From positions 1 to 64,000 of the IMG/VR virus record IMGVR_UViG_3300035664_000006: 64,000 bases of DNA, one strand, 5' to 3'. Position 1 is the stretch's first letter; each line of letters starts with the position of its first letter. Under the pieces are notes generated by a model. It was not told where the DNA came from. It made no database searches and saw only the letters and a list, made by a program, of their open reading frames with translations. The position numbers and the translations under genes were made by a program. The DNA is from a virus. Shown here in pieces: positions 1 to 62,555 of this stretch.

Positions 1-490
1 TACCAGTGATGATATAGATTGGGTATGACAAGTAGAACTCGATGATGTGACTTGGAGTAAAGTCAGTATCACGAACGATAGTTTGGTGCCATGTACCGTC
101 TTGCTCTGTGAAGTAAGAAGCACCCCAATAGATAGCCCATCCATAACAGACTAGCCAGGTCCAGTGAGTGAAGTGGCGGTGTAATTCTTCTCTTGGAGCC
201 AATGATTGGCCGGACATCATAGCACGATCTCTTGTTTTCCAAATGTATCCATTGATACCAGCAAATAATAATACCTCAGCTACGATTTCAATGTACAACA
301 TGTTCATCCAGTATTTCTCAAATTCAGGTGCAAACGAGTCAAGACCAGCTGACCAGCCATAAACACCTTCGTACCAACGAATGAATGAATAGAATACCAA
401 ATAGAGCATCATACCAGCCCATAGGTTTACTTTATTTAACAACGGTGCAGCAGATGCATCGCTTTTTACGTTTTCAGATATAGCAGCCAT
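1..490 (-). CDS. pmoC: Particulate methane monooxygenase subunit C, 5' part (runs off the window)
   Basis: The first 163 codons read as PmoC, an integral-membrane subunit of the copper enzyme that oxidises methane to methanol. Visible hallmarks are RWYEGVYGWSAGLDSF near residue 40, WKTRDR, the YWGASYFTEQDGTWHQTI stretch, and the D/H-rich segment DTDFTPSHIIEFYLSYP near residues 143-160, which lies in the metal-binding region of the family. The start is set by AGGAGG (497-502) just upstream. A consensus sigma70-like promoter and a leader hairpin precede it. No pmoA or pmoB is visible next to it. PmoC of this type is related to AmoC, but the EQDGTWHQT and FTPSH blocks and phage context favour pmoC. 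The 3' end is outside the window, so intactness cannot be judged. Confidence 0.93.
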   Translation of the reverse strand, partial: MAAISENVKSDASAAPLLNKVNLWAGMMLYLVFYSFIRWYEGVYGWSAGLDSFAPEFEKYWMNMLYIEIVAEVLLFAGINGYIWKTRDRAMMSGQSLAPREELHRHFTHWTWLVCYGWAIYWGASYFTEQDGTWHQTIVRDTDFTPSHIIEFYLSYPIYIITG

Positions 491-528
491 TTTATACCTC
501 CTAATAGGTTTTATTGACTTTTAAATTC

Positions 529-548
529 GGTTTAACGCCCGTTAAACC
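529..548 (-). promoter_or_regulatory. Hairpin in the pmoC 5' leader
   Basis: GGTTTAAC-GCCC-GTTAAACC is a perfect 8-bp stem about 40 nt before the pmoC start. It sits between promoter and ribosome-binding site, without a T-run in the direction of pmoC, so it is more likely a stabilising or regulatory stem than a terminator. Confidence 0.5.
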
Positions 549-597
549 AGCTCGCGGGAGATAGAGCTACAACAACTGTTTAGTAGTTGATGTAAAT

Positions 598-626
598 ATT
601 ATATATCAGTGTGTCATGTTTGTCAA
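598..626 (-). promoter_or_regulatory. Sigma70-like promoter for pmoC
   Basis: TTGACA (621-626), 17-nt spacer, TATAAT (598-603). This is a perfect consensus. It gives pmoC a leader of about 100 nt. Confidence 0.8.
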
Positions 627-654
627 TTATTATTTATAATTACCTAGTAAAAAA

Positions 655-1968
655 CTAAAGTTTTTCACCTGGTGTGAAACCTCTAAAACATTTGAATCTT
701 GGAAACCGTAAGCTATAGGTACCGTCTCTGTTTTTAGTTATTGCATCAGCACGGATTTCAGCCAATTCACCAACAATTGTGCTACGGGACTGCCATATAT
801 CAAATCGAAGCTGGTCACTGAAACCACTACCAATGTTAACCAAGATTTCTCTGCCATCGTCGATGCCTTTACATACCAGCGCACCTGTGACTCCTTCATA
901 CTTACCTGTTCCTTCTTCAACGCTTACTATTCGTAAAGTTACTTCGATAAATGGTTTAAGTTTTAACCAAGCAACTGATCTATCACAGACATATGGTGCG
1001 TTGGGATCTTTTATTAGCATCCCTTCATATCCACCATCAATTGCCGTTTGATTGATTTCAAGATATCTGTTATAGCCATCAGTTGTGTCCAAATCAACTA
1101 ATTCTTGTTTTACCACTCTCACATTAAGCAGTTGTAGGAAAATCTTATCTTCAAACCAAGATTTCAGATTATTTGAACGTTGATGTTGTGAAACTTTGTA
1201 TGAACCTTTTTCAAAATCTGCTAATGGAATCATATCAAATAGATAAAGGATTGCATCATTAGTTGATACATTTTCCTTACGATTTACCTGAGTCATCAGA
1301 TCTTGGAATGATGAACTCATAATTTCCCCATCAAACACAGTGGGTTCTGTAAGAGTTTTAGCTACAAATGAAAATTGTTGTTTAACTTGTTCAAAATTTA
1401 ATAACTCTTTACCATTACGGCTATACTGGTCAACCCGACCACTCGGATAGACCACAGTAAGAATCCTAACTCCATCGAGTTTAACTTCCAGTAGTTTTTT
1501 CCCGGATACCTTAGATTCGTGGTTAGCACTATCATGGGCAAGCTGGCAACTGAAAACAGGAATAGCATAATCAGCATGTTTCTTTACTACTTTATTAATA
1601 GTTTTTACACTAGTACCACATCGTAGGTCTTTAATCAAGATTCTACGATACCAATTATTCCACTGTTCTTTAGTGGATTTGGCCATTAACTCTTTTATGG
1701 TGTCTCTAGCAAGATTGCCAGTACATGAACGATCAATAAAAGTAGAAACATGGTTAAAAAAATCATCCCAAGCAAGTCCAGGTCCGTCTTCATCGGTTTT
1801 CTCCTCGATTTGTTTAAGGCCAAATGTAGTGGTAGCACTAAGAGCCAACTTGCATCCTTCAAAGAAAGTATCATTGTTGGAAGTTAGCTCTTCTTTAATG
1901 ATACGTTCTTTTACCAATCGGCTATTGTCTGATTCTAATCGGTTAATTACCGTCCATGGGTGTCTCAT
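655..1968 (-). CDS. ATP-dependent DNA ligase, T4 gp30-like
   Basis: This 437-residue protein seals nicks in duplex DNA during replication and repair. The nucleotidyl-transferase motif I is EVKLDGVR near residue 165, with lysine as the adenylated residue. FDGEIM (motif III), YEGMLIKDP (motif IV) and WLKLKP (motif V) follow in order, then an OB-fold tail. Length fits T4 gp30. It ends in TAG two nucleotides from a small membrane-protein gene and belongs to the clpP transcription unit. The only uncertainty is the exact start; MRHPW is the first in-frame ATG after the upstream gene stop. Confidence 0.92.
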   Translation of the reverse strand: MRHPWTVINRLESDNSRLVKERIIKEELTSNNDTFFEGCKLALSATTTFGLKQIEEKTDEDGPGLAWDDFFNHVSTFIDRSCTGNLARDTIKELMAKSTKEQWNNWYRRILIKDLRCGTSVKTINKVVKKHADYAIPVFSCQLAHDSANHESKVSGKKLLEVKLDGVRILTVVYPSGRVDQYSRNGKELLNFEQVKQQFSFVAKTLTEPTVFDGEIMSSSFQDLMTQVNRKENVSTNDAILYLFDMIPLADFEKGSYKVSQHQRSNNLKSWFEDKIFLQLLNVRVVKQELVDLDTTDGYNRYLEINQTAIDGGYEGMLIKDPNAPYVCDRSVAWLKLKPFIEVTLRIVSVEEGTGKYEGVTGALVCKGIDDGREILVNIGSGFSDQLRFDIWQSRSTIVGELAEIRADAITKNRDGTYSLRFPRFKCFRGFTPGEKL

Positions 1969-2130: not shown

Positions 2131-2751
2131 TTATACCCTCTTTGTAATAATTTCATCACACAAACCGTATTCAACTGCTTCTTGTGCAGATAAGAATGTG
2201 TCAAATTTCATTGTTTCAAACAATTCTTCATATGTCTTACCTGCGGTATTGTGATGTACATACAATTCTGTTAGTCTTTGATTTAAATACTTCGATTCGT
2301 TAAAATGTCTAGTGGCATCTTCGAATTGTAAATCTTGAACATGTACTGAACCTCTAGTACCAGGTGTGCCTGAGCTAACACGATGGATCATTGTACGTGA
2401 CTGAGGTAATGCAAATCGTTTACCTGGAGCACCGGCTTGTGCTAAGAATGAACCCATCGAACATGCTTGACCAATAATAATAGTCGATACATCCGGTTTA
2501 ATGAATTGCATTGTATCGTAAATAGCTAGTCCAGCGGAAACACTACCACCTGGACTATTGATATAGAATTGAATATCGTCATTTCCTTGACTTTCTAGGA
2601 ATAAGAATTGAGCAACAAGGATACTTGCTGAATGTTCATTCACATCTGTATCTAGCATTACGATACGATCTTTTAGTAAACGACTGTAAATGTCATATGA
2701 ACGTTCGCCACGTGCTTCTTGTTCTACGACCATAGGGATTAATGACGGCAT
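2131..2751 (-). CDS. clpP: ATP-dependent Clp protease proteolytic subunit
   Basis: This 206-residue serine peptidase normally stacks as tetradecameric rings fed by a ClpX/ClpA ATPase. The triad is visible: Ser in [10 protein letters not shown], His in MIHRVSSG, Asp in MKFDTFLSA. The N-terminal segment [16 protein letters not shown] is typical. No Clp ATPase is in the window, so it probably uses the host unfoldase. A ClpS adaptor gene lies at 47.5 kb in this genome. A promoter stands 30 nt upstream. The gene is co-directional with ligase. Confidence 0.96.
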
Positions 2752-2781: not shown

Positions 2782-2810
2782 ATTATATTATATTAGTTGC
2801 ACATTGTCAA
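2782..2810 (-). promoter_or_regulatory. Sigma70-like promoter for clpP-ligase unit
   Basis: TTGACA (2805-2810), 17-nt spacer, TATAAT (2782-2787). Confidence 0.78.
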
Positions 2811-5259: not shown

Positions 5260-6477
5260 TTAAGGGCCGGTAAATGCAACCCAGTCAGTTCCATTGTATC
5301 CATAGAAATGATTACTTGTACTATTAAATATTATCCATCCCTTTTCTGGGTTAGCTGGAAATGAACCAGTTGAGTATGATGTTGCTTTGATTACCGGTGC
5401 ATTAAACACCCCTTTACTATCAAACGTAAATTCGTTATAATTTTCAGTATTATTTCCCGTCATTACCGTTATAGTAGTTGATGGGTGTATAGTACTCATC
5501 ACCGCGTCACTATCTAATTGAGAAATTATACCTGAAGTAGTAACATAAATGGAGTCTTCAGTTTCTTTATATGCATTAAATAACAAAGACCCTATGATAT
5601 CATTGGGTGATAACGCACTAGGTGAATTAATATCACCATTTGCTGATAATAACGATATATTAGGTGAGTTAACTATATCAGTACCTCTTGTTATTCCAAG
5701 TACTGTTAACATGTCAATTGCACCTGAATTTATAGTCAACCCATCTGAAAATATGTTAGATTCATTTAACGTAATCGAGCTAGTACCAATACTAGTAGAA
5801 ACTATTGTACCAGTTATGTCTATATTTCCAGTACCTGAAATAGATTTTGTATTTAAATCTAAATTAGAACCCAATTTACCATTCAAGGTAGTTGCAGTAA
5901 TATTACCATTGATAATAATATTACCAGTACCTGAAATAGATTTTGTATTTAAATCTAAATTAGAACCCAATTTACCATTCAAGGTATTTGCAGTAATATT
6001 ACCATTGATATTAATATTACCAGTTCCAGTTAAATTGTGTGAATTTAACGATAAATCACCACCTAATGATGGGCTTGGGTCATCTACTAATTCTTCTATA
6101 CCACCGGCTCCCAATGATACAGTTGCAAGTATTTTATTAAGGGTGTCATCATATGTAAATGATATATTACTATGACCAACATTATGGGTTAATAATGATG
6201 CTGAGGCATCCTGTGCTCTATCAGTGGTAAAATATAGGTTGGTTCCTTCTGTAATATTAGATGTTGATAAATTTGTACCACTAATATCGAGTTGTTGGGT
6301 TGAATCATTCCATGAAAGGCCAGCTCCCACAGTTGTCTTTAATACGTTTACACCACCAACTGTTACACCATCTCCCACAAATAGTTTTTTACTATCCGTA
6401 GTATATGCAATTTCACCAAGATCAAAGGTAGTTGTTTGACGTTGTGATTCTGTTCCTCTTCTAATTCGTAGCGACAT
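5260..6477 (-). CDS. Tail-fibre-like structural protein with internal repeats
   Basis: 405 residues. The N-terminal segment LRIRRGTESQRQTTTF...DLGEIAYTTDSKKLFVGDG matches the conserved N-terminal module of many phage fibre/receptor proteins. The middle carries Gly/Asn-rich beta repeats; one 32-residue unit (GKLGSNLDLNTKSISGTGNI) is duplicated nearly exactly, reflected as a 96-bp DNA repeat. The C-terminus ends in a WIIFNSTSNHFYGYNG head-like motif common in fibre tips. It has a T4-type late promoter and a strong terminator, so it is likely a late virion gene for host adsorption. Confidence 0.82.
   Translation of the reverse strand: MSLRIRRGTESQRQTTTFDLGEIAYTTDSKKLFVGDGVTVGGVNVLKTTVGAGLSWNDSTQQLDISGTNLSTSNITEGTNLYFTTDRAQDASASLLTHNVGHSNISFTYDDTLNKILATVSLGAGGIEELVDDPSPSLGGDLSLNSHNLTGTGNININGNITANTLNGKLGSNLDLNTKSISGTGNIIINGNITATTLNGKLGSNLDLNTKSISGTGNIDITGTIVSTSIGTSSITLNESNIFSDGLTINSGAIDMLTVLGITRGTDIVNSPNISLLSANGDINSPSALSPNDIIGSLLFNAYKETEDSIYVTTSGIISQLDSDAVMSTIHPSTTITVMTGNNTENYNEFTFDSKGVFNAPVIKATSYSTGSFPANPEKGWIIFNSTSNHFYGYNGTDWVAFTGP
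5831..6022. repeat. 96-bp tandem repeat inside the tail-fibre gene
   Basis: Two nearly identical 96-bp units start at 5831 and 5927, with a degenerate third copy beginning near 6023. They encode 32-residue fibre repeats and could expand or contract by recombination, changing fibre length. Confidence 0.85.
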
Positions 6478-14459: not shown

Positions 14460-14747
14460 TTATTCTAAAATACCGAAGATTTCAGGTTCTCTTAGAACAA
14501 TACATTCGATATCTTCAATTTTTACTTCAACACCTGCACCTTTTGGAAAGATAACAGTGTCGCCAACTTTTACAGTCATTTCACGTACAATTCCATTATC
14601 TAGTTGCTTACCTTCACCAACTGCAATAACTTCACCTTCTGAAGTTTTTATACTTTTATCTTCTGGAATTACAATACCAAAAGAATTAGTATTAATTACT
14701 TCTTTTTTCTTAACTACTACGCGATCATCTAATACGTGTGCTTTCAT
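14460..14747 (-). CDS. GroES-like co-chaperonin
   Basis: 95 residues, the length of GroES. MKAHVLDDRVVVKKKE is the first strand; SFGIVIPED is the mobile-loop region, followed by EGEVIAVGEG, VKVGDTVIFPKGAGVEVKIE and ECIVLREPEIFGIL. It would cap host GroEL during folding of phage proteins, like T4 gp31. It is 1 nt from a parvulin gene, forming a folding operon driven from the promoter at 15436-15464. Confidence 0.93.
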   Translation of the reverse strand: MKAHVLDDRVVVKKKEVINTNSFGIVIPEDKSIKTSEGEVIAVGEGKQLDNGIVREMTVKVGDTVIFPKGAGVEVKIEDIECIVLREPEIFGILE

Positions 14748-29084: not shown

Positions 29085-29493
29085 CGAGCATACTTTGCCC
29101 CACAAAGGGGGCAAAAAATAAAAATTTCAACTGAGTTGACTTCACACTGATATTACACTATTACAGAGGCGGTCAGCCGGTACCTCGAAGTGCTGTCTTT
29201 ATCTGACGGCGGGTTCATTCATACATATCAGCGCACAAATGTCCGTAGGGTTCTTATCCCTTCTTTAGCCTATTTTTCCATTGCTCAAACATTCGAAATC
29301 GGTTTTACAAAGGCGTATCCGATCATCATCTACAACACGAGGTGTAGGTAGTCAAATGAGTCATTGCTTCAGCACAATTGTTTCCATCTACGCGAAGGAC
29401 ATTCCGTATCTCTGGGCACTATTTTTCCTTACCAGTGCAGGTTTTATCTGAAGTGTATTGCCTAAGTTGTGCCTGAGTTTGAGCCTTAATATT
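29085..29493 (-). ncRNA. Candidate ~400-nt noncoding RNA
   Basis: Between the promoter at 29499-29527 and a GC-rich hairpin (GCCCC/GGGGC near 29098-29115) there is no ORF longer than about a dozen codons, yet base composition is markedly less AT-rich than local spacers. Short complementary runs are frequent. It does not show RNase P, tmRNA or 6S signatures. Large ornate phage RNAs near tRNA clusters (GOLLD/ROOL type) are a possible comparison, not an identification. Confidence 0.6.
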
Positions 29494-33580: not shown

Positions 33581-33676
33581 TTAAGCAGCGATAGCATCAA
33601 AGATGCCATCTACAGTGTAGAATTCAAATTTTGTATTTGCTTTTGCATTTACTTTAAATGCTTGATTTACGGTCAT
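33581..33676 (-). CDS. Short ORF of unknown function
   Basis: 31 residues, MTVNQAFKVNAKANTKFEFY, with GGAG 15 nt upstream. It follows the long-stem RNA at 33735-33816 and the promoter at 33896-33923. Low complexity and small size make it uncertain. Confidence 0.4.
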   Translation of the reverse strand: MTVNQAFKVNAKANTKFEFYTVDGIFDAIAA

Positions 33677-33734
33677 CGCCTACCGATTCTCCAATGTTCT
33701 TTTATCCAGCAATCGAATCTAAGTCAGGCCCATT

Positions 33735-33816
33735 ATAAAACATATTAGCACTTCCCTTTTAAGGGGCAGGAAGTTTATGGCTATGGCCCCACTCTGATAC
33801 CTCTAATATGTTTTAT
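33735..33816 (-). ncRNA. Long-stem RNA
   Basis: 82 nt closed by a perfect 14-bp stem ATAAAACATATTAG/CTAATATGTTTTAT; inner GGGGCC...GCCCC and ACTTCC/GGAAGT. It lies outside the tRNA cluster, behind its own promoter. The gene-free stretch 33527-33999 holds this RNA, the short ORF and control elements. Confidence 0.5.
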
Positions 33817-33895
33817 GGTGGACCTGGCGATGTTCTGCCCATCGCGTCTTACCAAACTATTACAACATCTTCAACGAATTCTTTAATTAATGTGT

Positions 33896-38016: not shown

Positions 38017-40074
38017 CTACTTGGTTGTAGCTCTGTAAATTCCATCCCATGAAAGTGGTAATTTAGTTTTTTTCATTTGTTCACATCTTTCAATCCATAA
38101 CTCGTAGCTATGTTCCATTTGGCCATCAAATTCACTCATTAATTCTTTAGACATTTTAATAGCTTGGTCAAACTGTTGAGAACGATATGCTAATAACATG
38201 AAGTTATGTTTTGTTCTTGCTTCTTCGTATGAATCCAAATTTACATTATCGGTTAACAGTGGTGTATAAATTTGTAATCCAACTGTTTTACCTTTCACTG
38301 CAATATTATCAAGTTCTAATGTAAAAATTTCATCTTTAACTAACGCATTTGTATTAGGTCCAATAATAAGTAATACACCATAAGATTTAGTTTGACCTTC
38401 TAATCTAGCAGCAGTGCTAACTGAATCACCTAACACATCGTATCCAAATTTATCTTTAGAACCAATATTACCAATTAGTGTTTCACCGGTATTAACCCCA
38501 GCCCCCATACCAACTGGTGGACGGCCACTAGCAGTAAGTTCAATATTGAAATCTTCGATTGCTTTAATCATTTGTTGAGCAGTTTTAACTGCAGTTACGG
38601 CATGATTAGGATCATCTAATGGCGCACCGTGAACATGTAAACTTGCATCGCCGATGAATTTAATCAATGTACCGTCATTCTTTAATACTGGTACACTCAA
38701 CGCAGTCATATAATCATTCATGATTTGTGTAAGACCTTCTACATCATCACCGAACGATTCTCCTAGGGTTGTAAATCCACGTAAATCTGTCATGACAATT
38801 GAAAGTTCTTTACGTTCTCCACCTAGTTTAATAAGTTCTGGGTTCTTTTGTAATTTTTCTACGATAGTAGGGTTAACATATGAGCCAAATTGTTTTTTAA
38901 TCTGCATTTTTTGTAAGAACTCACTTACAAATTTCACACCATATGCATGTAATGCAACTAGTATAATACCACTTACAAATGCAGTAATATCAAACAAGTA
39001 CAAGTATTCGCTAAACACATATTGGCTACCAAACACTGATCCAACGGTTAATACAACAACGGCACCTAACCCAACATAAATCCATCTAGTTAAGAATAAT
39101 AGCAGAATGCCGATGACTAGTAAAGATAAGATTTCAACGCCATCTGCATAATCTGGACGTTGTATTACTACGTTATTCATTATAGTACCAATAACTGCTG
39201 CTTGTGCTTCATGTGGGAATACCGAACCTTTTGCAGTTGGAATAGGATTACCGATACCTGCAGCAGTCGGGCCAACGATAACTATTGAACCGTTGAGATC
39301 ATCAGGTATATTAGATAAACTTATACTGGTTGACGATTGGCTCCAATCTATCCAAACACGACCTAGTGGATCAGTCGTAATTGGACCGAACTTTGGAATT
39401 CTCATTTTCTCAACACCAAATTCATTTAGTTTTACTTGAAAAGTTGAATCACCACTCGATGCTAACGCAACTGTTTCTAAACTTAATGATGGATATAGTT
39501 TATCACCAACTGAAACTACTAATGGCATCCTGCGATTAACACCATCAATTTCGGGTAGTGTATTAACTGTACCAACCCCGGCTACAGATTCTTCTATGAC
39601 TGGAATATTAGCAATAATACCTGGATATTGAATGACACGATCAATAAATTCTGGTCCTAATACTACTGACCCTGTGATTTTAGGTGTATTTTTAGAAAGA
39701 TCAGCCGGGATATTAGGGAGAATAACAGGATAACTTGATAAGGCATTCGCGAATGCCTTATCACCACCTTGGCGATCAGTTTCTGGCATTAGGACATTGA
39801 ATACCACTAATCCGGCATTATGCTCATACAGGTTTTGGATTATATCTGCATAGATGGTTCTCTTGAATGGCCATTGACCATACTTGTCTAACGATGACTC
39901 GTCTATATTAATTGTATAGATTGAATTTTCAGTGGTTGGCTTTGATGTAATTAACGTATCAAAATATCGTAATCTTATACTTTCTATAAATGATGGATCG
40001 GATACCCGTACACCAACAATTAAAAATAACGTTAATAATGCAGTCCATGGACTTAAAAGAATTTTTTTAATCAT
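38017..40074 (-). CDS. CHASE2-domain class III adenylate cyclase
   Basis: 685 residues. One N-terminal TM, an extracytoplasmic CHASE2 sensor (about 30-310; FDTLITSKPTTENS, DESSLDKYGQWPFKR), three TM helices (320-400) and a class III cyclase domain (about 435-615). Catalytic features: TDLRGFTTLGE, LIKFIGDASLHVHGAP with the substrate Lys, and GYDVLGDSVSTAARLEG with the ATP-type Asp. The transition-state Asn of VNxAAR is Ser here, so activity needs testing. It would make cAMP in response to an envelope signal. Last gene of the curli-like block; ATG overlaps the ATP-grasp stop. Confidence 0.9.
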   Translation of the reverse strand: MIKKILLSPWTALLTLFLIVGVRVSDPSFIESIRLRYFDTLITSKPTTENSIYTINIDESSLDKYGQWPFKRTIYADIIQNLYEHNAGLVVFNVLMPETDRQGGDKAFANALSSYPVILPNIPADLSKNTPKITGSVVLGPEFIDRVIQYPGIIANIPVIEESVAGVGTVNTLPEIDGVNRRMPLVVSVGDKLYPSLSLETVALASSGDSTFQVKLNEFGVEKMRIPKFGPITTDPLGRVWIDWSQSSTSISLSNIPDDLNGSIVIVGPTAAGIGNPIPTAKGSVFPHEAQAAVIGTIMNNVVIQRPDYADGVEILSLLVIGILLLFLTRWIYVGLGAVVVLTVGSVFGSQYVFSEYLYLFDITAFVSGIILVALHAYGVKFVSEFLQKMQIKKQFGSYVNPTIVEKLQKNPELIKLGGERKELSIVMTDLRGFTTLGESFGDDVEGLTQIMNDYMTALSVPVLKNDGTLIKFIGDASLHVHGAPLDDPNHAVTAVKTAQQMIKAIEDFNIELTASGRPPVGMGAGVNTGETLIGNIGSKDKFGYDVLGDSVSTAARLEGQTKSYGVLLIIGPNTNALVKDEIFTLELDNIAVKGKTVGLQIYTPLLTDNVNLDSYEEARTKHNFMLLAYRSQQFDQAIKMSKELMSEFDGQMEHSYELWIERCEQMKKTKLPLSWDGIYRATTK

Positions 40075-40946
40075 GATATTTTATCTATAATAAATGATGA
40101 TATTGCATCAGCAACATTGGTATTGCAATACTTGTCAAACCCACTAAATCCTGGATTTGAATTAGCTTCACATACTCTAAACCCTCGATCATCAAAAAGC
40201 AGATCAATCCCTGCAATCGTAAGATTTAATACTTCAGCCGTTTTAAGTGCTATTTCTTCAATTTCAGATGATACGGGAAATGATTCACCAGTACCACCAT
40301 TGGTTATATTAGCTCTGAAGTCATCTTCCGGTGCAGTTCGTTTCATTGCACCTAATACTTTACCACCTACTACAAATACTCTTAAATCTTCACCGGGTCT
40401 ATGTGCTAGATATTCTTGGGCAATAAGAGTTTTTTCATTATGTACAGCATCTACAAATTCAATAAATTTTATATATTCTTGTTTAGTTTTACAAAGATAA
40501 ACACCTTCGCCGAAGCTACCAACTACTACCTTTACTACACATGGAAATCCGATAGTTTTTTCAACTAAATCTGATCTTGAGGTAGATTTAACTATCATGG
40601 TATGTGGAACTGCGATGCCAGCATTCGCTAATATTTCACTTGATTGGAATTTATCTTGTACTAAGTTAATACTTTCACTACCATTATAACACGGAATTCC
40701 TTCTAATTCAAAGTATCTAATTACAGATAATTCAGCACGTGATATTCCTGCACCAAGTCGTACTAATACTGCTCTTGGTCTAGCTAATCGTTCCCCATCA
40801 TAAAATATTCCATGATTTAGAATAACATCGAATTTATTGAAGTAGCACACTCTGATATGAACATCCTTATCTGCAAAACTTTGTATAAGTTTTGAGGTTT
40901 CATAGTCAAATTCTTTTCTTTGTTTGGTTAAAATTAAAACGGTCAT
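40071..40946 (-). CDS. RimK-like ATP-grasp ligase
   Basis: 291 residues. VQDKFQSSEILANAGIAVPH, GFPCVVKVVVGSFGEGVYL, AQEYLAHRPGEDLRVFVVGG and LLFDDRGFRVCEANSNPGF are the ATP-grasp blocks of RimK-type enzymes, which attach amino acids (often glutamate) to protein or small-molecule carboxylates. In this block it could modify an amyloid or signalling protein, but that is a guess. Coupled to the cyclase gene. Confidence 0.87.
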   Translation of the reverse strand: MTVLILTKQRKEFDYETSKLIQSFADKDVHIRVCYFNKFDVILNHGIFYDGERLARPRAVLVRLGAGISRAELSVIRYFELEGIPCYNGSESINLVQDKFQSSEILANAGIAVPHTMIVKSTSRSDLVEKTIGFPCVVKVVVGSFGEGVYLCKTKQEYIKFIEFVDAVHNEKTLIAQEYLAHRPGEDLRVFVVGGKVLGAMKRTAPEDDFRANITNGGTGESFPVSSEIEEIALKTAEVLNLTIAGIDLLFDDRGFRVCEANSNPGFSGFDKYCNTNVADAISSFIIDKIS

Positions 40947-40978: not shown

Positions 40979-42094
40979 TTATTGACCTTGCTGTATAGTA
41001 ATCTTGGGACATCCACCCGTAGTAGCACAATTAAAATTAATTGAATATGATTGTTGAGAACTACCACTTTGAGATAAGCTTAAATCAGTTGGTTGACCAG
41101 ATAATGAAATCTTGCCCATATGATTACCAGATCCTTGTTGTAAAGTGTCAATGTGCTTATTATCACCACTTATATCGAGTTCTAAATATTGATTGCCGGA
41201 ATCTTTTTGTTGTAGTGATAATGTATTGTTGTTTCCGTTTACATGTGTGAAAATACCTTTAGAACCACCGGTATTCTGTTGTAATAGTGAAGCAGTATTA
41301 TTATTTCCTAAAATACTTAATTCCGTATAATTTACTGAAGCATTCGACGTTGATGTTTCACTTATTGAAATTGTATTATTAGAACCGTTGCCATAATATT
41401 CTATATAATTGTTTTTAGACCCTGATTGAGTTATTGTTATAGTATTAGAATTACCAAGTTGTTCTATATAAACTTGACTATCGGACGTTGCTCTATTGAT
41501 AAATGATTGAACATTCGCAACATTAAATGAATTTGCATTAAAATTAGCAGATGAACCGCCACAGCACAATGTTGGTACAAAAAAACTTGAAGAAGTAGCT
41601 AGGTTGTTAGATGGTACTACGACTATTCCATTACCAATATTCCAATCTAACTGTAGTACCGCACCACCACCGTTTTCATACCACCATACATCTATGGCAT
41701 AAACTTGTCCAGCAGTCAATGTAATGGTACCAGAACCATTAAAGTTATTAGGTCCCTGTTCTACCCAGTTATTAATTACAACTGTGTTATCAATGGACAT
41801 ATAAAATCCATCGTCACTTCGATCATAAAAAGTTATGGTTTTACTACCAGATGAACCAGGCCACAAAATACTTCCAGTGAAATGAATTATTACACCATCA
41901 GCTCTTCCCGAACCCATAACAACTCCTCCTCCCCAGTCATAATTTAATGAGGTAGATACACCAGACGATAAAATTGCGCCATTTGTATTCCTGGATGGAG
42001 TTGCGCCACCGGCAGCATATACAATATAATCTAAACCAGCCACTCCATCGGCATATACGTTTATACAAAATAATAACAACAGAATAAATTTCAT
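40979..42094 (-). CDS. Exported PA14-like/curlin-repeat protein
   Basis: 371 residues with signal peptide MKFILLLLFCINVYA. Residues about 40-165 follow the PA14 fold (HFTGSILWPG, TITFYDRSDDGFYMSIDN, AIDVWWYENGGGAVLQLDW), a carbohydrate-binding module. From about 200 on there are curlin-type repeats (VYIEQLGNSNTITITQSGSK, SILGNNNTASLLQQ, NNNTLSLQQKDSGN). It may be a surface amyloid with a binding head. ATG overlaps the FecR-gene stop. Confidence 0.83.
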   Translation of the reverse strand: MKFILLLLFCINVYADGVAGLDYIVYAAGGATPSRNTNGAILSSGVSTSLNYDWGGGVVMGSGRADGVIIHFTGSILWPGSSGSKTITFYDRSDDGFYMSIDNTVVINNWVEQGPNNFNGSGTITLTAGQVYAIDVWWYENGGGAVLQLDWNIGNGIVVVPSNNLATSSSFFVPTLCCGGSSANFNANSFNVANVQSFINRATSDSQVYIEQLGNSNTITITQSGSKNNYIEYYGNGSNNTISISETSTSNASVNYTELSILGNNNTASLLQQNTGGSKGIFTHVNGNNNTLSLQQKDSGNQYLELDISGDNKHIDTLQQGSGNHMGKISLSGQPTDLSLSQSGSSQQSYSINFNCATTGGCPKITIQQGQ

Positions 42095-43185
42095 TTTAAT
42101 TGTAATACTCCTGATGATTGAATTATATTCACAATATTACCACCAGGGCTACCATCGCCGATGAGTGTAGATGCGGCAACGCTATTTTGTGTAATATTAA
42201 TTGATGTATTTGAGCTGTATCCTTGTGTTTTTATTTCTGAATAATGCTCAAATGGTGCTACTCGAAATGCAACACCTTTTCCTTTATCTCGGTCATCATT
42301 GCCGTTTTTATCCCATAATACACAAACGTTATTAACTGCATTACACCCCAATTTTCCTGCAGCTGATAACATCGCTAACATACGTGCTTGTTCTATTTCT
42401 TCACCACTTTTTGCCACTTGACTGGCCAATCTTCTAGTAGCCTCTGCTTCTATTTCTTCTAATTCTTTATCTCGTGGTGATTTCATAGCTTCTTTCATGA
42501 CTCGTTGTACTTCTACTGGTTTCACTATTATAAGGTTGTTGGATATTTTTGATTCAATAATATTAATTGATGTAGGTGGCGTTGGACTCATTGTTGCACT
42601 TTGAACATAAGTTGCTTGGAATGCTTCTTCTAATGAAACTTTACCTGCTAGGGTTTCTACATCAATTTTACCAACTTTGCATTTGTTTTCTTCTAATTCA
42701 TACTTTTTAATGTCTTTTTCATCTTTACAACTTGGTACTAGAACAATTAAACTCTGTCCAGATTCATCAACCGTCATTGTAAAATCAGTGCCTCTAACTG
42801 CAATAGCAGCAGTTGGTGTTTTTATATTCACTTGTTGTGGATTATTTTTAGCTATTTGACCAGATGCATACCTAACAGTACCCATACCTACCTTGAGTGC
42901 TAATTTACCTGCATCACTTGATTTTGGGTCGAATACAAAGTCGTCTATTAATAGACGACTATTTTCTGTTATCTTTACTTTTGTATCATCTTTAAAAATT
43001 ATGTTGCTAATACAACCACCAGTTATATAAATATCCATACTTTCAATTGCAGCACCTTTATCACCTGGTAAATTTTGTTTATTTCGTTCTATTTTACAAT
43101 TGGTACTAGATACATCGGCAACTGTACCTATTCCGGCTGAAACATTAACAGATAATAAACAAAGTATTACTGCAATAATTGGCAT
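42091..43185 (-). CDS. Exported FecR-domain protein
   Basis: 364 residues with signal peptide. The FecR domain spans about 60-190 (TENSRLLIDDFVFDPKSSDA, KTPTAAIAVRGTDFTMTVDE). A long helical stretch (RDKELEEIEAEATRRLASQV) and a C-terminal segment with NITQNS and IIQSSGVLQLK recalling curlin strands. FecR-domain proteins and CHASE2 cyclases are often neighbours in bacteria, suggesting envelope signal input to the cyclase. Confidence 0.84.
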   Translation of the reverse strand: MPIIAVILCLLSVNVSAGIGTVADVSSTNCKIERNKQNLPGDKGAAIESMDIYITGGCISNIIFKDDTKVKITENSRLLIDDFVFDPKSSDAGKLALKVGMGTVRYASGQIAKNNPQQVNIKTPTAAIAVRGTDFTMTVDESGQSLIVLVPSCKDEKDIKKYELEENKCKVGKIDVETLAGKVSLEEAFQATYVQSATMSPTPPTSINIIESKISNNLIIVKPVEVQRVMKEAMKSPRDKELEEIEAEATRRLASQVAKSGEEIEQARMLAMLSAAGKLGCNAVNNVCVLWDKNGNDDRDKGKGVAFRVAPFEHYSEIKTQGYSSNTSINITQNSVAASTLIGDGSPGGNIVNIIQSSGVLQLK

Positions 43186-43187
43186 AA

Positions 43188-43982
43188 TTATCTTGCAATT
43201 GCGGATTGTGCATTCACTATTGTGCTTGAACTTGATCTAACTGTAATGGTATTGTTATCACCAGTTGTTTTCAAATCAATTGTAGTATCATTTGACCCTT
43301 GTTGTTGGGTAGTAATCGCATTATAATTACCAGCGATGACTTCTTTTAAATAATGTCCAGTTGCACCGGCTACATCACTTTGTTCAACATTTAATAAGTT
43401 ATTATTACCTGTAATGCTTAAGAGAGAAGTACCATTTGTACTAGATAAATTTTCAGTAACTTGGTTGGTTCCTCCGGTAATGGTGAGTGTACTAGTAATA
43501 TAGTTTCCAATTATATTTTGCATCACGATGTTAGTATTGCCGGTGATAGTTTCAGTTACTTCAACATGTTGATTATCTGTGGAATTTGTATCACCAATAA
43601 CTAATCTATTTTTATTATCATTACCAGATATGGTGTTAGTATATTTATTGTTCCCACCTTTAATACTATATTGCGCCCAGTTATTATTACCATGATGTGT
43701 CATTGATAAAATATTATTACTACCATTAATAGTTGCATAATTTGATGCACTGGCTGGATCTGGTGTATTAGTAGTTATGTTAGTGGTTTGATCCGTTGTG
43801 ATAGTACCAGAAATACCACCGACTGTATTGGTTCCACCTACTTGTTCTATTGTAATAGTATTTGAATTTCCTATTTGTTCTATGAAGACACTGTTAGGAC
43901 CGGTAGCAGTTCCAACAGCCATGGTTAAATTAGAAAACAATATCACTGATGATATTAATAAATAATTCAATAATTGTTTCAT
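43188..43982 (-). CDS. Curlin-like amyloid subunit
   Basis: 264 residues with signal peptide ending at NLTMA. N-terminal SVFIEQIGNSNTITIEQVGG is the canonical I-x-Q-x-G-x2-N-x3-I-x-Q curlin repeat; degenerate N/Q/T-rich repeats continue to the end (NNNLLNVEQSDVAG, NYNAITTQQQGSNDT, GDNNTITV). Predicted substrate of the adjacent CsgG channel and nucleator or major subunit of an extracellular fibre. Only two curlin-type genes are visible. Confidence 0.85.
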   Translation of the reverse strand: MKQLLNYLLISSVILFSNLTMAVGTATGPNSVFIEQIGNSNTITIEQVGGTNTVGGISGTITTDQTTNITTNTPDPASASNYATINGSNNILSMTHHGNNNWAQYSIKGGNNKYTNTISGNDNKNRLVIGDTNSTDNQHVEVTETITGNTNIVMQNIIGNYITSTLTITGGTNQVTENLSSTNGTSLLSITGNNNLLNVEQSDVAGATGHYLKEVIAGNYNAITTQQQGSNDTTIDLKTTGDNNTITVRSSSSTIVNAQSAIAR

Positions 43983-43996
43983 TTCAATATGCTCCT

Positions 43997-44797
43997 TTAT
44001 TGTTTAAACGCCCAATGCCCTTTACGAGCCCCTTCACGAATTGTATCGACAACTGCTGCTTGGACTGCTTTATTAGTTGCTCTATTGATACTCTCGTTTA
44101 TACTACCGCCTATTTCAGCCTCTAATGCTTTAGTATCAGCAGCTATAAATCTTAAAACACCGAATTTATCCATATAACTTAGGACAGTCTTGGTCACTGT
44201 TACCGAAGTTAAAATCTCACCGGATGTTACTGAAACTGTTCGTAGACTGACAGTTACGGTATCACTTTGGTATTGTGTTTCACCACCAATTCCAAAAATT
44301 CTTACACCTGCACCACCAGTCAATGTATTTGAATCATACCCGACAATCGCTCCTTCTGCCAATATTCCAGCAAATAACATCGCTGGTAATGGTTGTGCAT
44401 CTTTGCCCTGAAATTGCTCACGAGCTTGTCGAATCATCTGCCGTTCTTTAATCAAGTTTTCTAGGCCGACACGTTCAACAACAGTAAACCATCTCGCATC
44501 ACCTACATCTTGTAATGCTTTAATTAAGTAATTTTCAGCCCCTTGTGTAACTGCAGAACTTAAACTAGCTATATTTGGCATAGATTTACGTTGCCCAGTT
44601 TTATCAGTAAATCCATATACTGCAATTGGAATAGGTCCTGATGATGGCGGATCCAATTTATTTTCATCTTTATATAAAAATAAACTTTTTTCAATAACTG
44701 GATCATCAAATTGTTCACCAGTAATTAATTTATTGATAGCACTACTTGTAGCACACCCTTGCAACAATATCATTGACAGTATAATAATTTTTTTCAT
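43997..44797 (-). CDS. csgG: CsgG-type curli secretion channel lipoprotein
   Basis: 266 residues. Lipobox LLQGCATS. VYGFTDKTGQRKSMPN, ARWFTVVERVGLENLIKERQ, the constriction-loop region and GYDSNTLTGGAGVRIFGIGG, TQYQSDTVTVSLRTVSVTSG and EILTSVTVTKTVLSYMDK align along the entire CsgG family. It forms a nonameric outer-membrane pore for curlin export. Between csgF and the curlin gene. Confidence 0.95.
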   Translation of the reverse strand: MKKIIILSMILLQGCATSSAINKLITGEQFDDPVIEKSLFLYKDENKLDPPSSGPIPIAVYGFTDKTGQRKSMPNIASLSSAVTQGAENYLIKALQDVGDARWFTVVERVGLENLIKERQMIRQAREQFQGKDAQPLPAMLFAGILAEGAIVGYDSNTLTGGAGVRIFGIGGETQYQSDTVTVSLRTVSVTSGEILTSVTVTKTVLSYMDKFGVLRFIAADTKALEAEIGGSINESINRATNKAVQAAVVDTIREGARKGHWAFKQ

Positions 44798-44799
44798 AA

Positions 44800-45279
44800 T
44801 TAGAAATAAAATGTCCCAGCTGGTACTTTCATTGTTGTGGTCTGTAAAGGATTTGAATTATTAGTAATATTGATAATTATCAATCCTTGATCAGAACCTG
44901 CTCCTAAACTCCAAGTGACATTATTCCCACCAAGATCTGGCATATTTCCACATACCGTACCTGGTGATGTACATGTTGTCCCTTCGCTAAACATTGAGTC
45001 AGTTAATTGTTTAGCCAACTGTGAGTATATTCTAGATTCTAAATTAGCTAAGAATTTAGCTTGCGGGGTATTTTGTGCATCAGATAACGCTTTTGCTTGT
45101 AATGCATCAGCAGCTGCTTTATTTTTATCTGCTGCTTGTGTTTCTAGCTGATTAATCGTTAATACATGTGAACTATATCCAACACCACTAAATGCTGGAC
45201 TATTGAATGTATGCTGCAACTCGGCAGATTGTACAACATATGGCCCGATTAAAAATAAAAAACCTAGTATTTTTCTCAT
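44800..45279 (-). CDS. csgF: CsgF-type curli assembly factor
   Basis: 159 residues. Signal peptide, then the CsgF N-terminal segment LQHTFNSPAFSGVGYSSHVL, which in E. coli inserts into the CsgG pore, and the C-terminal NVTWSLGAG...GLIIINITNNSNPLQTT and VPAGTFYF. First gene of the block. The start is at MRKILGF, behind an unbroken run of eight G in the ribosome-binding region. No csgE homologue is seen. Confidence 0.9.
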   Translation of the reverse strand: MRKILGFLFLIGPYVVQSAELQHTFNSPAFSGVGYSSHVLTINQLETQAADKNKAAADALQAKALSDAQNTPQAKFLANLESRIYSQLAKQLTDSMFSEGTTCTSPGTVCGNMPDLGGNNVTWSLGAGSDQGLIIINITNNSNPLQTTTMKVPAGTFYF

Positions 45280-45283
45280 GAAT

Positions 45284-45316
45284 ATCCCCCCCCTTAAGTT
45301 ATTTAAAAAGAGGGGT
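45284..45316 (-). promoter_or_regulatory. csgF leader with G8 tract and complementary C-run
   Basis: ATACCCCTC upstream can pair with GGGGGGGGATAT, which includes the ribosome-binding region of csgF. The homopolymer could slip in replication, and the hairpin could hide the ribosome site. A TATAAT lies just upstream but with no good -35, so transcription may come from the bilin genes. Confidence 0.5.
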
Positions 45317-45335
45317 ATTATTATAATACTAGTAG

Positions 45336-46010
45336 TTAATTGACTGGGAATAAGCAATGGTTAACGTATAAATGAGATTGCTCTTCTGATAAGCCTAATG
45401 ACATTAGGACTCGTGGGTTATGGGGGTTAAGACGTTGATTTTCAATGTAATATTGATGTTTACTTGAAATATCGTCTATGGTATGGTTTGTATCTATTAA
45501 GGATACCATATATGCAGTTAACGTTGATGAAACCGTATTTAAAATCTGATCTAATTCTTCATCTGATTGAACATTGCCTGCTGCAATGATGGAATCTGAA
45601 AATATTCGTTTACCCCAATCTGGTAGTTCACGTTTCTTATTCCATTCTAGTTTTTCTGATTCTTCTTTAAACCAATCGGACAATGAATGGTTAGCTATTA
45701 CTGGACTAAAATCATGAAAACATCCAGTTATTTTATTTTTACCTGCAAATACATCAAACCCAAATATAGGAGCAGGATTGTGATAATGCGGGTAAATACA
45801 ACAATGCATCATCCACAATCCACGGGCATCTAGCACATCAATGATATTGACATGTGCTTTTCGATATAATGAAGAACTCCAGGTTTGATTAGACCAACCT
45901 GGGTTGTTAAACTGTCCAGCAATCGGATCAGAAACTTCTTCACCTGATTGCTGGAAAGTATTTAAAAATAACTGTTGTATATCTGTAAGAGTACACAACA
46001 ATTTATTCAT
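45336..46010 (-). CDS. Ferredoxin-dependent bilin reductase (PcyA/PebS/PcyX family)
   Basis: 224 residues. GLWMMHCCIYPHYHNPAPIF, GFDVFAGKNKITGCFHDFSP with the conserved Asp of the family, and the helical C-terminus with QHYYIENQR-like SKHQYYIENQRLN are typical. The enzyme reduces biliverdin to a phycobilin using ferredoxin. It overlaps the heme oxygenase gene by 8 nt, so heme is probably taken to a reduced bilin in two steps. PcyX-type phage enzymes from non-cyanobacterial hosts are the nearest concept. Confidence 0.87.
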   Translation of the reverse strand: MNKLLCTLTDIQQLFLNTFQQSGEEVSDPIAGQFNNPGWSNQTWSSSLYRKAHVNIIDVLDARGLWMMHCCIYPHYHNPAPIFGFDVFAGKNKITGCFHDFSPVIANHSLSDWFKEESEKLEWNKKRELPDWGKRIFSDSIIAAGNVQSDEELDQILNTVSSTLTAYMVSLIDTNHTIDDISSKHQYYIENQRLNPHNPRVLMSLGLSEEQSHLYVNHCLFPVN

Positions 46011-46539
46011 GTAATTCCTTCATAATTTTAATAGCCCATTTAAATGCAACTCTTGCTTCATCACCTAAATCATCAGTAAGTTCTTCACGAATTGCATTTC
46101 TAAGCCCTTCAACATCATCGAATTGGTAAAACTTACCAGAACCTGGTACTGTTTTAGCGATATATTGTCCACCATATAAATCGCCCATATGACGAACATA
46201 AAGATGAGCTTTAATTAAATGTTTAGTTGATGGTTCATTTAATAATCCTAACACATAATTGTTATATGCCAGTGTTGCTGGTAAAAATGTATAATGTGTG
46301 TTAGGATCTCTTAATTCGATAAAATCTTGATAAATTCCAGGTAGTCTTTCAACGCCTGGTAAGTTATCAAAATATCCTAACACTTTGCAACCAAATTCAA
46401 CTGGTCCATATGCTGCAATCATCTGATACAGGTAATTAGTATATAGTTCAGTTGAAATCTTACCAGTTAATAATAATTTTGCAAAGTTAGTTTTCTCTGC
46501 TTCCGTATGTAAATCTTTTGTAATTTCACGTAATGACAT
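46003..46539 (-). CDS. Heme oxygenase
   Basis: 178 residues from MSLREITKDLH. Proximal histidine in ITKDLHTEAEKTNFAKLL, distal-helix glycines in HMGDLYGGQYIAK. Converts heme to biliverdin, CO and iron with reduced ferredoxin, feeding the adjacent bilin reductase. Shine-Dalgarno AAGGA and a perfect promoter precede it. Phage heme oxygenases are known from cyanophages. Confidence 0.92.
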   Translation of the reverse strand: MSLREITKDLHTEAEKTNFAKLLLTGKISTELYTNYLYQMIAAYGPVEFGCKVLGYFDNLPGVERLPGIYQDFIELRDPNTHYTFLPATLAYNNYVLGLLNEPSTKHLIKAHLYVRHMGDLYGGQYIAKTVPGSGKFYQFDDVEGLRNAIREELTDDLGDEARVAFKWAIKIMKELHE

Positions 46540-46562
46540 ATTTTTCCTTATAATAATCATAT

Positions 46563-46667: not shown

Positions 46668-47459
46668 ATGATATTTATAGAAAATAAGTATACCATATGG
46701 TATAATAAAATTATTAATTCCTCAAAAACTCGTAAATTATCAAATAATGTATATACAGAAAGACATCACATTATACCAAGAAGTGTTGGAGGGTCTAATG
46801 ATGACAGTAATATAGCAATTCTTACTGCCCGTGAGCATTTTTTATGCCATTTATTATTAGTTAAAATGACTTCTAATAAAGAACGGGTTAAGATGATATA
46901 TGCTTCTTGGAGAATGGTTTGCACATCTAACAGATATCAAGTAAGACATAAAACAACATCACGGATTTATCAAAAAATTAGAGAAGATTATATCAATGTT
47001 GTTAAAAATAGAAAAATGACTGATGAAACAAAACAAAAATTAAGAGAAGCTAACCTAGGTAAAAAGCATAGTGATGAAAGTAAAGCAAAAATGTCCAAAT
47101 CTAGAGCTGGTATACTATTAAATGAAATACACGGGATAGAAAAAGCAAATAAGATTAGGGAAAAACGTTCTGCTTCATTAAAAGGTAAAAATGCTGGAAA
47201 AACTCCTAGATTAGGTGCAAAATTAACAGAAGAATCCAAGCAGAAAATATCCGATAAAGCAAAACTCCGTAAAAAAGAATGCGAATATTGTAAAAATCAG
47301 TATTCTCTTTTAACTTACAATCGTTATCATGGTAAAAATTGTAAATTATCTGGGAATACTGATATTAGATTAATGAAAACTTGTGTATATTGTGATAAAA
47401 CTATGGACCCAGCAAATTATGCAAGATATCATGGTGATAAGTGTAAATTAAAACATTAA
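46668..47459 (+). CDS. HNH homing endonuclease with NUMOD3 and zinc-finger tail
   Basis: 263 residues, close paralogue of the gene at 11424. HNH core YTERHHIIPRSVGGSNDD...NIAILTAREHFLCHLLL, NUMOD3 modules (KMTDETKQKLREANLGKKHS), and two C-terminal fingers CEYCKN...RYHGKNCK and CVYCDK...RYHGDKCK. Its last 4 nt overlap the convergent clpS stop. Confidence 0.87.
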   Translation: MIFIENKYTIWYNKIINSSKTRKLSNNVYTERHHIIPRSVGGSNDDSNIAILTAREHFLCHLLLVKMTSNKERVKMIYASWRMVCTSNRYQVRHKTTSRIYQKIREDYINVVKNRKMTDETKQKLREANLGKKHSDESKAKMSKSRAGILLNEIHGIEKANKIREKRSASLKGKNAGKTPRLGAKLTEESKQKISDKAKLRKKECEYCKNQYSLLTYNRYHGKNCKLSGNTDIRLMKTCVYCDKTMDPANYARYHGDKCKLKH

Positions 47460-47758
47460 TCTTCACATTCAATTTTTATCTGGAGTGGAAACCCATTTTC
47501 TCTGGCTAGTTTAGTAGCATCAACGGCTTTAATTTCAGCGATTTCAAAATCATATACACCTGCGATACCTGAACCAGTTTCATGCACTTGCATAGTAACA
47601 TCATAAGCAGTTGATTCTGAATGTCTGAATACATCTACGAGCATCATGATTACGAAATCAATTGGTGTATGGTCATCATTTAGCACGATGACTTTCCAAC
47701 GTTTTGGTTCTTCTACGCGGATTTTTACTTTTTCTTCAATTTTAACGTCTGTTGACAT
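47456..47758 (-). CDS. clpS: ClpS adaptor protein
   Basis: 100 residues. RWKVIVLNDDHTPIDFVIMM and LVDVF, DVTMQVHETGSGIAGVYDFE are the ClpS N-degron-binding core. It delivers N-end-rule substrates to the ClpAP protease; with phage ClpP at 2.1 kb it suggests control over host proteolysis. Start chosen at MSTDVKIEEK. Confidence 0.94.
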   Translation of the reverse strand: MSTDVKIEEKVKIRVEEPKRWKVIVLNDDHTPIDFVIMMLVDVFRHSESTAYDVTMQVHETGSGIAGVYDFEIAEIKAVDATKLARENGFPLQIKIECED

Positions 47759-47780
47759 AATGGATTTCCTGTGTAAGTGA

Positions 47781-48209
47781 TTATTTAATTTCAATTTGGC
47801 GAGGTTTTAATGCCTCTGGTACAACATATTCTAATTCGATTCGTAACAACCCATCTTTAACCTCTGCACCAATAACCTCGATATATTCAGCTAATGGAAA
47901 TTGCACTAAAAAGTTTCGTGAAGCCAATCCACGATGTAAATATTCCCAGTCTGATGAATCATTGGTATCGATATGTTCACCTGTGATAGTAAGAATATTT
48001 TGGTCAACTTCGACATGAATTTCTTCTTTACTAAATCCTGCTACGGCTAATTCGATACTGTAATTAGTTTCATTGTATTTTAAAATATTATGTGGTGGAT
48101 AATTGGATTGTGTTGTACTAACTTTGTTGTTAAGCATCCGATCAAATCCCACCAATGCTCTATTTAAATTTGCTAATGTTGCTGTACCAATTGTTCTAAT
48201 TGTTGCCAT
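47781..48209 (-). CDS. Small heat shock protein (Hsp20/IbpA type)
   Basis: 142 residues with an alpha-crystallin domain (NYSIELAVAGFSKEEIHVEV, LTITGEHID, YLHRGLASRNFLVQFPLAEY, VKDGLLRIELEYVVPEAL). Typical of T4-like phages. Downstream of dnaK. Confidence 0.93.
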   Translation of the reverse strand: MATIRTIGTATLANLNRALVGFDRMLNNKVSTTQSNYPPHNILKYNETNYSIELAVAGFSKEEIHVEVDQNILTITGEHIDTNDSSDWEYLHRGLASRNFLVQFPLAEYIEVIGAEVKDGLLRIELEYVVPEALKPRQIEIK

Positions 48210-48225
48210 TTTATATCTCCTTATA

Positions 48226-48268
48226 TAAGCAAGAACAATCGTGAACCCATTGTAGGCATTTCACGATT
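48226..48268 (-). terminator. Large hairpin between dnaK and hsp20
   Basis: AACAATCGTGAA...TTCACGATTGTT, 12-bp perfect stem. No T-run; could attenuate or protect the mRNA ends. Confidence 0.5.
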
Positions 48269-48296
48269 GTTATTATAACATACTACTTTAAATAAA

Positions 48297-57224: not shown

Positions 57225-57233
57225 TCCTTGTCC

Positions 57234-57374
57234 TTATTCGTCTGGTAATCTTCTTTCGTGATAAATTACTAATGCATCTTCTAGTAATTCGATTTGTTTT
57301 TCGATCCTCCATTTTACTAGAGGATCGGTTTCTGTTTCTAATTTTTGTTTTAAGTGTTCGATATTGGCATCCAT
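57234..57374 (-). CDS. Small coiled-coil protein
   Basis: 46 residues, MDANIEHLKQKLETETDPLV, helical; overlaps the upstream gene by 25 nt and precedes nrdB. No family recognised. Confidence 0.58.
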   Translation of the reverse strand: MDANIEHLKQKLETETDPLVKWRIEKQIELLEDALVIYHERRLPDE

Positions 57375-57622
57375 GCATTTACCTTTATCAATTTTTTAAT
57401 ACCTGGAACACGTCTAATTAAGAATACTTTTCTACATGGTCCTTCTTTCTTAATGAAATCGTGTGCATCAACATAATTCACAGTTTTCGTAAAAGGTGAC
57501 TCTAATCTGATATACCAACCCCATGGTTCCATATTAAATTTGATATTTTTTCCAATACTTAATAATGTATTAGAGCTATATGGATCGCCATCGATATGTG
57601 TTTCTATTTTAAATATTTTCAT
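57350..57622 (-). CDS. Hypothetical small protein
   Basis: 90 residues, MKIFKIETHIDGDPYSSNTL; basic C-terminal part. Lies between nrdA and nrdB. No family recognised. Confidence 0.55.
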   Translation of the reverse strand: MKIFKIETHIDGDPYSSNTLLSIGKNIKFNMEPWGWYIRLESPFTKTVNYVDAHDFIKKEGPCRKVFLIRRVPGIKKLIKVNAWMPISNT

Positions 57623-57634
57623 TATTTCCTTCTT

Positions 57635-61403: not shown

Positions 61404-61442
61404 TTCTCATACCTCCATTATTATTTATGCTGGTATGAGAAA
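61403..61442 (-). promoter_or_regulatory. Shine-Dalgarno-hiding hairpin of the endonuclease
   Basis: TTTCTCATACC and GGTATGAGAAA form an 11-bp stem that includes GGAGGTATGAGAA ribosome-binding/start region; the loop contains CATAAATA, close to a late promoter core. This mimics the I-TevI control scheme of T4. Confidence 0.6.
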
Positions 61443-61447
61443 AACTG

Positions 61448-62407: not shown

Positions 62408-62555
62408 ATGATGTGTACTCTCAATCCGTATTACTATATTAATTCTGTTTAGGTAGTATTTAGTGGGTTGGATTGATGTGTGAAAAATTTTGTAAGTCAT
62501 TGAAATAGAACAGAATCTTATAAAAAGACGCTGTACTATTCAATGAATTATAGAT

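Follow-up and report, generated by a model that had tools for sequence, protein, structure and literature searches.

The closest described relatives of the locus studied here are the pmoC-phages, large tailed phages of freshwater with genomes of 159–527 kb that carry a stand-alone, methanotroph-like pmoC without pmoA or pmoB (Chen et al. 2020, PMC7674155). In those phages pmoC was co-expressed with structural genes, late expression was concluded, and the gene was generally among the top-20 transcripts in three large phages. Their scaffolds often end inside pmoC, which was attributed to assembly against the host copy, and some of their pmoC genes were found to be fragmented; this was left unexplained, and transcription of the gap in LR_6 was low (Chen et al. 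2020, PMC7674155). The phage analyzed here is alike in that it is a freshwater tailed phage, probably a large one, with a methanotroph-like pmoC standing alone, its contig also ends in pmoC, and an HSP20 gene is likewise present. It differs in having a PmoC of the Methylomonas lineage and a conserved leader, and the main text of Chen et al. 2020 (PMC7674155) contains no promoter, hairpin, endonuclease, intron or Methylomonas. The gene and its setting belong to the known pmoC-phage kind, and the phage-owned leader RNA is new.

Other viral systems share individual features with this locus. Viruses of Thaumarchaeota carry amoC, according to work cited in Chen et al. 2020 (PMC7674155), and there too a virus holds just the C subunit of an enzyme from this superfamily, but the host is archaeal and the process is ammonia oxidation, whereas the gene reported here is a bacterial pmoC. 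In T4-like cyanophages the psbA gene, as in S-PM2, is a host energy gene with an intron and with the gene of a free-standing homing endonuclease, F-CphI, adjacent to it, and collaborative homing has been shown for the pair (PMC6083498). Relatives of our phage similarly have group I introns and an adjacent homing-endonuclease-like gene at pmoC, but the S-PM2 enzyme is Endo-VII-like whereas the neighbors of phage pmoC are GIY-YIG/NUMOD3-like, as many as four introns occur in one pmoC gene, and the case for homing at pmoC comes from adjacency and co-occurrence. By analogy, the intron and endonuclease pattern at pmoC appears to match the collaborative homing of psbA and F-CphI. Structured RNAs are also found beside other auxiliary metabolic genes of phages, since PhotoRC RNA motifs occur near the photosystem genes of cyanobacteria and cyanophages (the term appears in Weinberg et al. 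2010, PMC2864571); in sequence and structure these differ from the pmoC leader.

The window, by which we mean the whole 64,000-nucleotide stretch analyzed, comprises bases 1–64000 of a linear virus record fragment of 95,883 bp (95.9 kb), whose head, ligase and ribonucleotide reductase genes identify it as phage. Its pmoC lies on the minus strand, starting at base 490 and remaining open to base 2, and is cut off after 163 amino acids because the virus record itself stops there. The truncated product matched PF04896 (AmoC) with an E-value of 2.8e-72 and 243.5 bits, above the curated cut-off of 26.7. Two IMG/VR contigs from different metagenomes, L044 and L002, were 100% identical to the window over their overlaps of 10,490 bp and 1,016 bp, respectively. 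Both run past the window end and complete pmoC as a gene of 253 amino acids with no frameshift and no intron; beyond it they contain small ORFs in non-host sequence, and no pmoA or pmoB. Neither pmoA nor pmoB was found in the record or in 11 relatives, and the Methylomonas LW13 control returned two copies of each. We conclude that pmoC is a real part of this phage and that the gene is intact. The original prediction had listed a pmoC start with AGGAGG, a TTGACA-N17-TATAAT promoter, an 8-bp hairpin and nearby ligase and clpP genes, with no pmoA or pmoB; each of these elements was located, the absence of pmoA and pmoB extends to the whole record, and the frameshift named as a possible refutation did not appear. 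The promoter and hairpin lie at 498–640, outside the range of 1–490 that had been given (Table 1).

Table 1. Features at the phage pmoC locus and group I introns in the pmoC alleles of related phages.
Feature	Record	Position	Strand	Remarks
Phage pmoC, 5' part (163/253 codons)	window	2–490	-	PF04896; completed in L044 and L002
Shine-Dalgarno AGGAGG	window	497–502	-	TTAGGAGGTAnAAATG-like context, also in Methylomonas pmoC
Leader RNA hairpin	window	524–553	-	Match to covariance model R1, 38 bits
Sigma-70-type consensus promoter TTGACA-N17-TATAAT	window	598–626	-	12/12 consensus match
TATAAATA, T4-type late-promoter consensus	window	631–638	-	5' of the -35 box, at -148 relative to the start codon
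ATP-dependent DNA ligase, upstream of pmoC	window	655–1968	-	PF01068, phrog_114
ClpP protease gene	window	2131–2751	-	PF00574; in the syntenic block holding pmoC in related phages
Consensus promoter of clpP	window	2782–2810	-	Promoter scan
Convergent ORF, 265 aa	L044	10791–11588	minus	NUMOD3 motif; beyond window base 1
Group I intron	L287	10659–10916		
Group I intron	L019	10615–10863		
Group I intron	L290	9784–10032		
Group I intron	L291	10643–10893		
Group I intron	L297	10130–10382		
Group I intron, first of two	L298	10596–10844		
Group I intron, second of two	L298	10898–11149		

The gene belongs to the pMMO lineage and not to amoC: it falls within the Methylomonas pmoC clade, and the matching host copy in LW13 adjoins pmoA and pmoB. 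In a PmoC tree of 57 phage and 79 bacterial sequences, the bacterial ones picked for their closeness to the window and the bootstrap not fully settled, the window lineage (L044, L296 and L045) nests inside Methylomonas PmoC with support of 100/98. A second phage group (L282, L285, L323, L287, L019, L321, L020 and L025) nests with Methylobacter-like hosts (96/88), L291 has no resolved position, and the remaining phage PmoCs fall outside the bacterial sequences, which were selected by closeness to the window. Well-supported branches of this tree force at least three changes of label. Related phages have clpP, ligase, phosphoesterase and other genes in a similar order around pmoC, and because these phages are related while their PmoCs fall in different host clades, one locus carries pmoC from different hosts. 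A comparison of PmoC with the phages in GenBank gave no match. The host is probably a methanotroph, and the ancestry of the gene points to the genus Methylomonas.

The completed PmoC in L044 has kept all of the copper ligands, D131/H135/H148 and N202/H206/H220, which we take to be the counterparts of Bath D156/H160/H173 and N227/H231/H245, an assignment that only partly follows Chen et al. The dN/dS of the window pmoC was 0.08 when compared with phage L296 and 0.05 when compared with Methylomonas, and the gene is under strong purifying selection. The best reading is that a tailed phage, probably a large one, carries it as a Methylomonas-derived auxiliary metabolic gene and has neither pmoA nor pmoB. 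These results bear out the prediction of a stand-alone, phage-borne pmoC of methanotroph origin with consensus expression signals: the proposed match to a methanotroph pmoC was to the Methylomonas clade, and a best match to amoC, which had been named as contrary evidence, did not occur. The phage PmoC may join the PmoA and PmoB of the host, in which case methane oxidation would be kept going during infection, presumably to the benefit of the phage. We know of no phage for which assembly of pMMO with phage PmoC has been demonstrated.

The 64-kb window has 25 perfect TTGACA-N16–18-TATAAT promoters where 0.24 would be expected, and every one of them is on the minus strand. Exact-consensus sigma-70 promoters at such a frequency on a single strand of 64 kb are unusual. 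With these counts, the promoter of pmoC is therefore real and not special to pmoC, being an ordinary member of the sigma-70-type set of the phage. In a syntenic relative of 372 kb, perfect promoters are nearly absent from the 60–180-kb block of tail sheath, portal, baseplate and head genes. The late-promoter consensus TATAAATA was found within 200 nt upstream of pmoC at 40 of 58 phage loci, which are not all independent, against about 2 expected from mononucleotide shuffling. It is the commonest feature shared among phage pmoC leaders, and those bearing it include the unrelated leaders of alphaproteobacterial-type phages. In the record, it also precedes a tail-fibre-like gene (5260–6477) and a virion gene (66082–67029), and in the 372-kb relative ATAAATA is upstream of 20 of the 78 late-block genes compared with 22 of 259 others. 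Across the window TATAAATA is not enriched (14 found, 15.5 expected), so that the copy at the window pmoC may be due to chance; for the same reason, our argument for late use is drawn from the leaders and the relative and not from the window count. Tandem promoters probably match the combined evidence best, including the published late-type co-expression: transcription of pmoC would be begun by the host polymerase shortly after infection and then sustained by a late factor.

The leader hairpin had originally been mentioned as a mere detail, but it is the most distinctive part of the locus, being both conserved and specific to pmoC. Its core at 529–548 is a perfect 8-bp stem, GGTTTAAC-GGGC-GTTAAACC, which sits 46 nt upstream of the pmoC start codon without overlapping the ribosome site. 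By itself an 8-bp hairpin is unremarkable, as there are 32 in the window and the leader fold had a z of -1.9; its significance comes from its conservation alone. Six distinct versions were found 42–46 nt before pmoC in related phages. The inner AAC-GGGC-GTT is nearly invariant among them, with one GAC and one GGGU as exceptions, and the outer stem has compensating changes, five of ten pairs being altered on both sides while 96.7% of cells pair. The covariation score, which is based on these six sequences from related phages, was 0.627, compared with 0.263 +/- 0.060 for shuffled and at most 0.193 for slid versions. Analysis of whole leaders with RNAalifold found this hairpin as the sole helix.

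Searches with the covariance model (R1) gave one match per phage, always at pmoC, in 10 of 30 records, and none elsewhere in the 30. In 20 methanotroph genomes, with the 150 best candidates scored per genome, there was no convincing match (best E 0.05). The exact core pattern matched 12 times in all of IMG/VR: eight matches were in pmoC-phage records and had stems of 9–11 bp (L002 was matched through its own contig), and four were in other sequence, with stems of only 3–4 bp. A looser hairpin pattern was also searched in viral contigs; among the matches listed, either the stem was short or the surrounding sequence was unrelated, as would arise by chance. Rfam has no family matching the pmoC leader. 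The hairpin is missing or altered in the close relatives L321, L020 and L025, and in L004–L008, which are other phages with a Methylomonas-type PmoC, and therefore is not essential for phage pmoC generally.

Host leaders have a TTGACA box with a -10 of TAGACT and a hairpin of their own, CCCGAT-TTG-ATCGGG, of another sequence and in another place, and the phage hairpin is not present in host pmoC leaders. From this it follows that the hairpin is phage-owned and persists through exchange of the coding sequence. The leader predates the coding sequence now behind it: the hairpin is common to phages whose PmoC derives from different host lineages, so either the coding sequence has been swapped while the leader stayed or the leader has moved between phages. 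Our best guess is that the hairpin probably acts in cis on the pmoC mRNA, where it may guard against decay from the 5' end or, alternatively, present its fixed AAC-GGGC-GTT core for binding by a protein or RNA. Termination or a block of the ribosome is unlikely, because the ribosome site is uncovered and the window has no U tract. A possible pairing between the GGG loop and CC stretches close to the ribosome site looked too weak by eye and was set aside.

Group I introns (RF00028, 64–105 bits) interrupt the pmoC alleles of seven relatives, with 11 introns at seven sites, including two in L298 and four in L299. When the exons were joined, six alleles yielded an intact PmoC; for L299, a single junction out of four could be placed only to within a few bases. 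A stretch of ~75 nt that encodes the region of the second copper site contains six of the seven sites. Altogether, 12 of the 15 intron matches (8 records) fall in pmoC, above the gathering score. No group I intron was found in 30 further records, mostly of alphaproteobacterial-type pmoC-phages, or in the window allele. In the L299 allele (IMGVR_UViG_3300047476_001516, 1530–2612) the four introns are in tandem in the last third of pmoC, separated by exons of only ~22–30 nt.

The convergent ORF beyond the window (Table 1) lies 28 bp from the end of pmoC. Of the seven intron alleles, five (L287, L019, L290, L298/L328 and L299) have a convergent GIY-YIG-like ORF just downstream of pmoC, and among about two dozen intronless gamma-type loci such an ORF was present in the window lineage only. 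The association of ORF and intron gave a Fisher value of ~0.002, based on rough lineage counts of 5/7 vs 1/18. The strength of the family assignment varies among these ORFs: that of L299 was above the GIY-YIG cut-off, that of L044 above NUMOD3 only, that of L287 had a weak SegE match, and that of L019 had no Pfam match and was related to the others by phmmer similarity. L019 and L290 have the same intron site and similar neighboring ORFs; both features are missing from L323 and L321, with which they are syntenic. The ORF of the window lineage resembles that of the four-intron allele (277 bits). By analogy with these relatives, the published fragmented pmoC genes are probably also intron-interrupted, and spliced introns would explain the low-level transcription of the LR_6 gap. 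A search of open-access literature found no article with both pmoC and a group I intron, and the one with pmoC, intron and phage concerned tRNA introns; introns and homing genes at phage pmoC thus appear to be undescribed in that literature.

We consider it likely that the intact pmoC is expressed from a phage-owned cassette of sigma-70 promoter, late motif and structured 5' leader, and that its PmoC sustains methane oxidation in the host. It is hardly credible that the locus is instead an assembly chimera with host DNA at the pmoC end of a phage that has no pmoC. The contig does stop within pmoC, as host–phage assembly confusion would produce (Chen et al. 2020, PMC7674155), but the two contigs from other metagenomes are identical to it through the junction and continue beyond pmoC into non-host sequence that includes an ORF resembling homing endonucleases; furthermore, pmoA and pmoB are both missing and L296, a 90%-identical relative, has the same arrangement. 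The leader might also have been inherited from a methanotroph along with pmoC, keeping host regulation, and indeed the ~15 nt immediately preceding the start codon are Methylomonas-like and host leaders too have a TTGACA box and a hairpin. The different -10, the different sequence and place of the host hairpin, the poor R1 result in methanotroph genomes and the occurrence of the hairpin across phages with PmoC of different hosts make this very unlikely. An intrinsic terminator or attenuator, in which the hairpin would curb read-through into pmoC from the promoter (or the ligase gene) and the loop would not matter, likewise strikes us as improbable. The hairpin is intergenic and a T-rich stretch follows it in L282, L323, L285 and L287, but the window and L291 lack a U tract there, and a terminator scan does not report it. 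It is situated downstream of pmoC's own promoter, and in the 30 records it was never found between other genes. Moreover, a terminator would have no need for a loop core and closing pairs that are nearly invariant while the outer stem covaries.

For the hairpin we favor a role in stabilizing the message or as a binding site, and tandem promoters remain our preferred account of timing. The original prediction was that expression is probably early, and purely early expression from the sigma-70 promoter would fit its perfect consensus and the avoidance of the structural block by this class of promoter. That view is too narrow, given TATAAATA beside the promoter and in most phage pmoC leaders, the commoner ATAAATA before late-block genes of the 372-kb relative and the late-type co-expression already published (Chen et al. 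2020, PMC7674155), and we regard it as rather doubtful. As for the protein, PmoC might be no catalytic replacement, and instead inhibit or interfere with the host enzyme, or merely maintain membrane copper or the stability of the complex. Only one of the three subunits is carried, and Chen et al. (PMC7674155) had no data on its mode of working, but the retention of both copper sites, the strong purifying selection and the fast growth of hosts under infection in Lake Rotsee (Chen et al. 2020, PMC7674155) render a non-catalytic PmoC quite improbable.

A wider possibility, which we put forward tentatively while leaning somewhat against it, is that pmoC is a mobile, phage-regulated cassette. The leader RNA would control the gene, neighboring endonucleases would cut the alleles of co-infecting phages and so spread introns, adjoining DNA and the pmoC allele itself, and ‘fragmented’ pmoC genes would be functional ones with self-splicing introns. 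The parallel with psbA suggests that homing endonucleases may help to transfer energy genes between phages. The conserved, phage-owned leader and the probable tandem promoters suggest that phages invest in controlling pmoC, and these findings bear on whether phage pmoC aids or hinders methane oxidation. The leader itself is a short, testable RNA.

Several other features of the window were noted, all on the minus strand. Ribonucleotide reductase genes at 56112–62500 are interspersed with GIY-YIG-endonuclease-like ORFs, and an ORF among them (59288–60322) is intein-like, combining intein splicing and ribonucleotide reductase barrel regions. A permuted two-piece tmRNA (33581–33880; Rfam, 92.5 bits) and a Polynucleobacter-1 RNA (29287–29443; RF01718, 64 bits) are both also present in the related L291. 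In addition to ClpP, there is a proteostasis set of GroES-like, ClpS, HSP20 and full-length DnaK (HSP70, E 3e-259) genes at 14460–14747 and 47456–50186. A CHASE2 sensor fused to an adenylate/guanylate cyclase domain (38017–40074) adjoins a RimK-like ATP-grasp gene (40071–40946). Curli-like genes at 40979–45357 encode CsgG (E 2e-49), CsgF, a FecR-domain protein and a protein in which curlin repeats are combined with a PA14 domain. Heme oxygenase and ferredoxin-dependent bilin reductase genes are adjacent (45336–46560), an arrangement familiar from cyanophages, in what is presumed to be a methanotroph phage.
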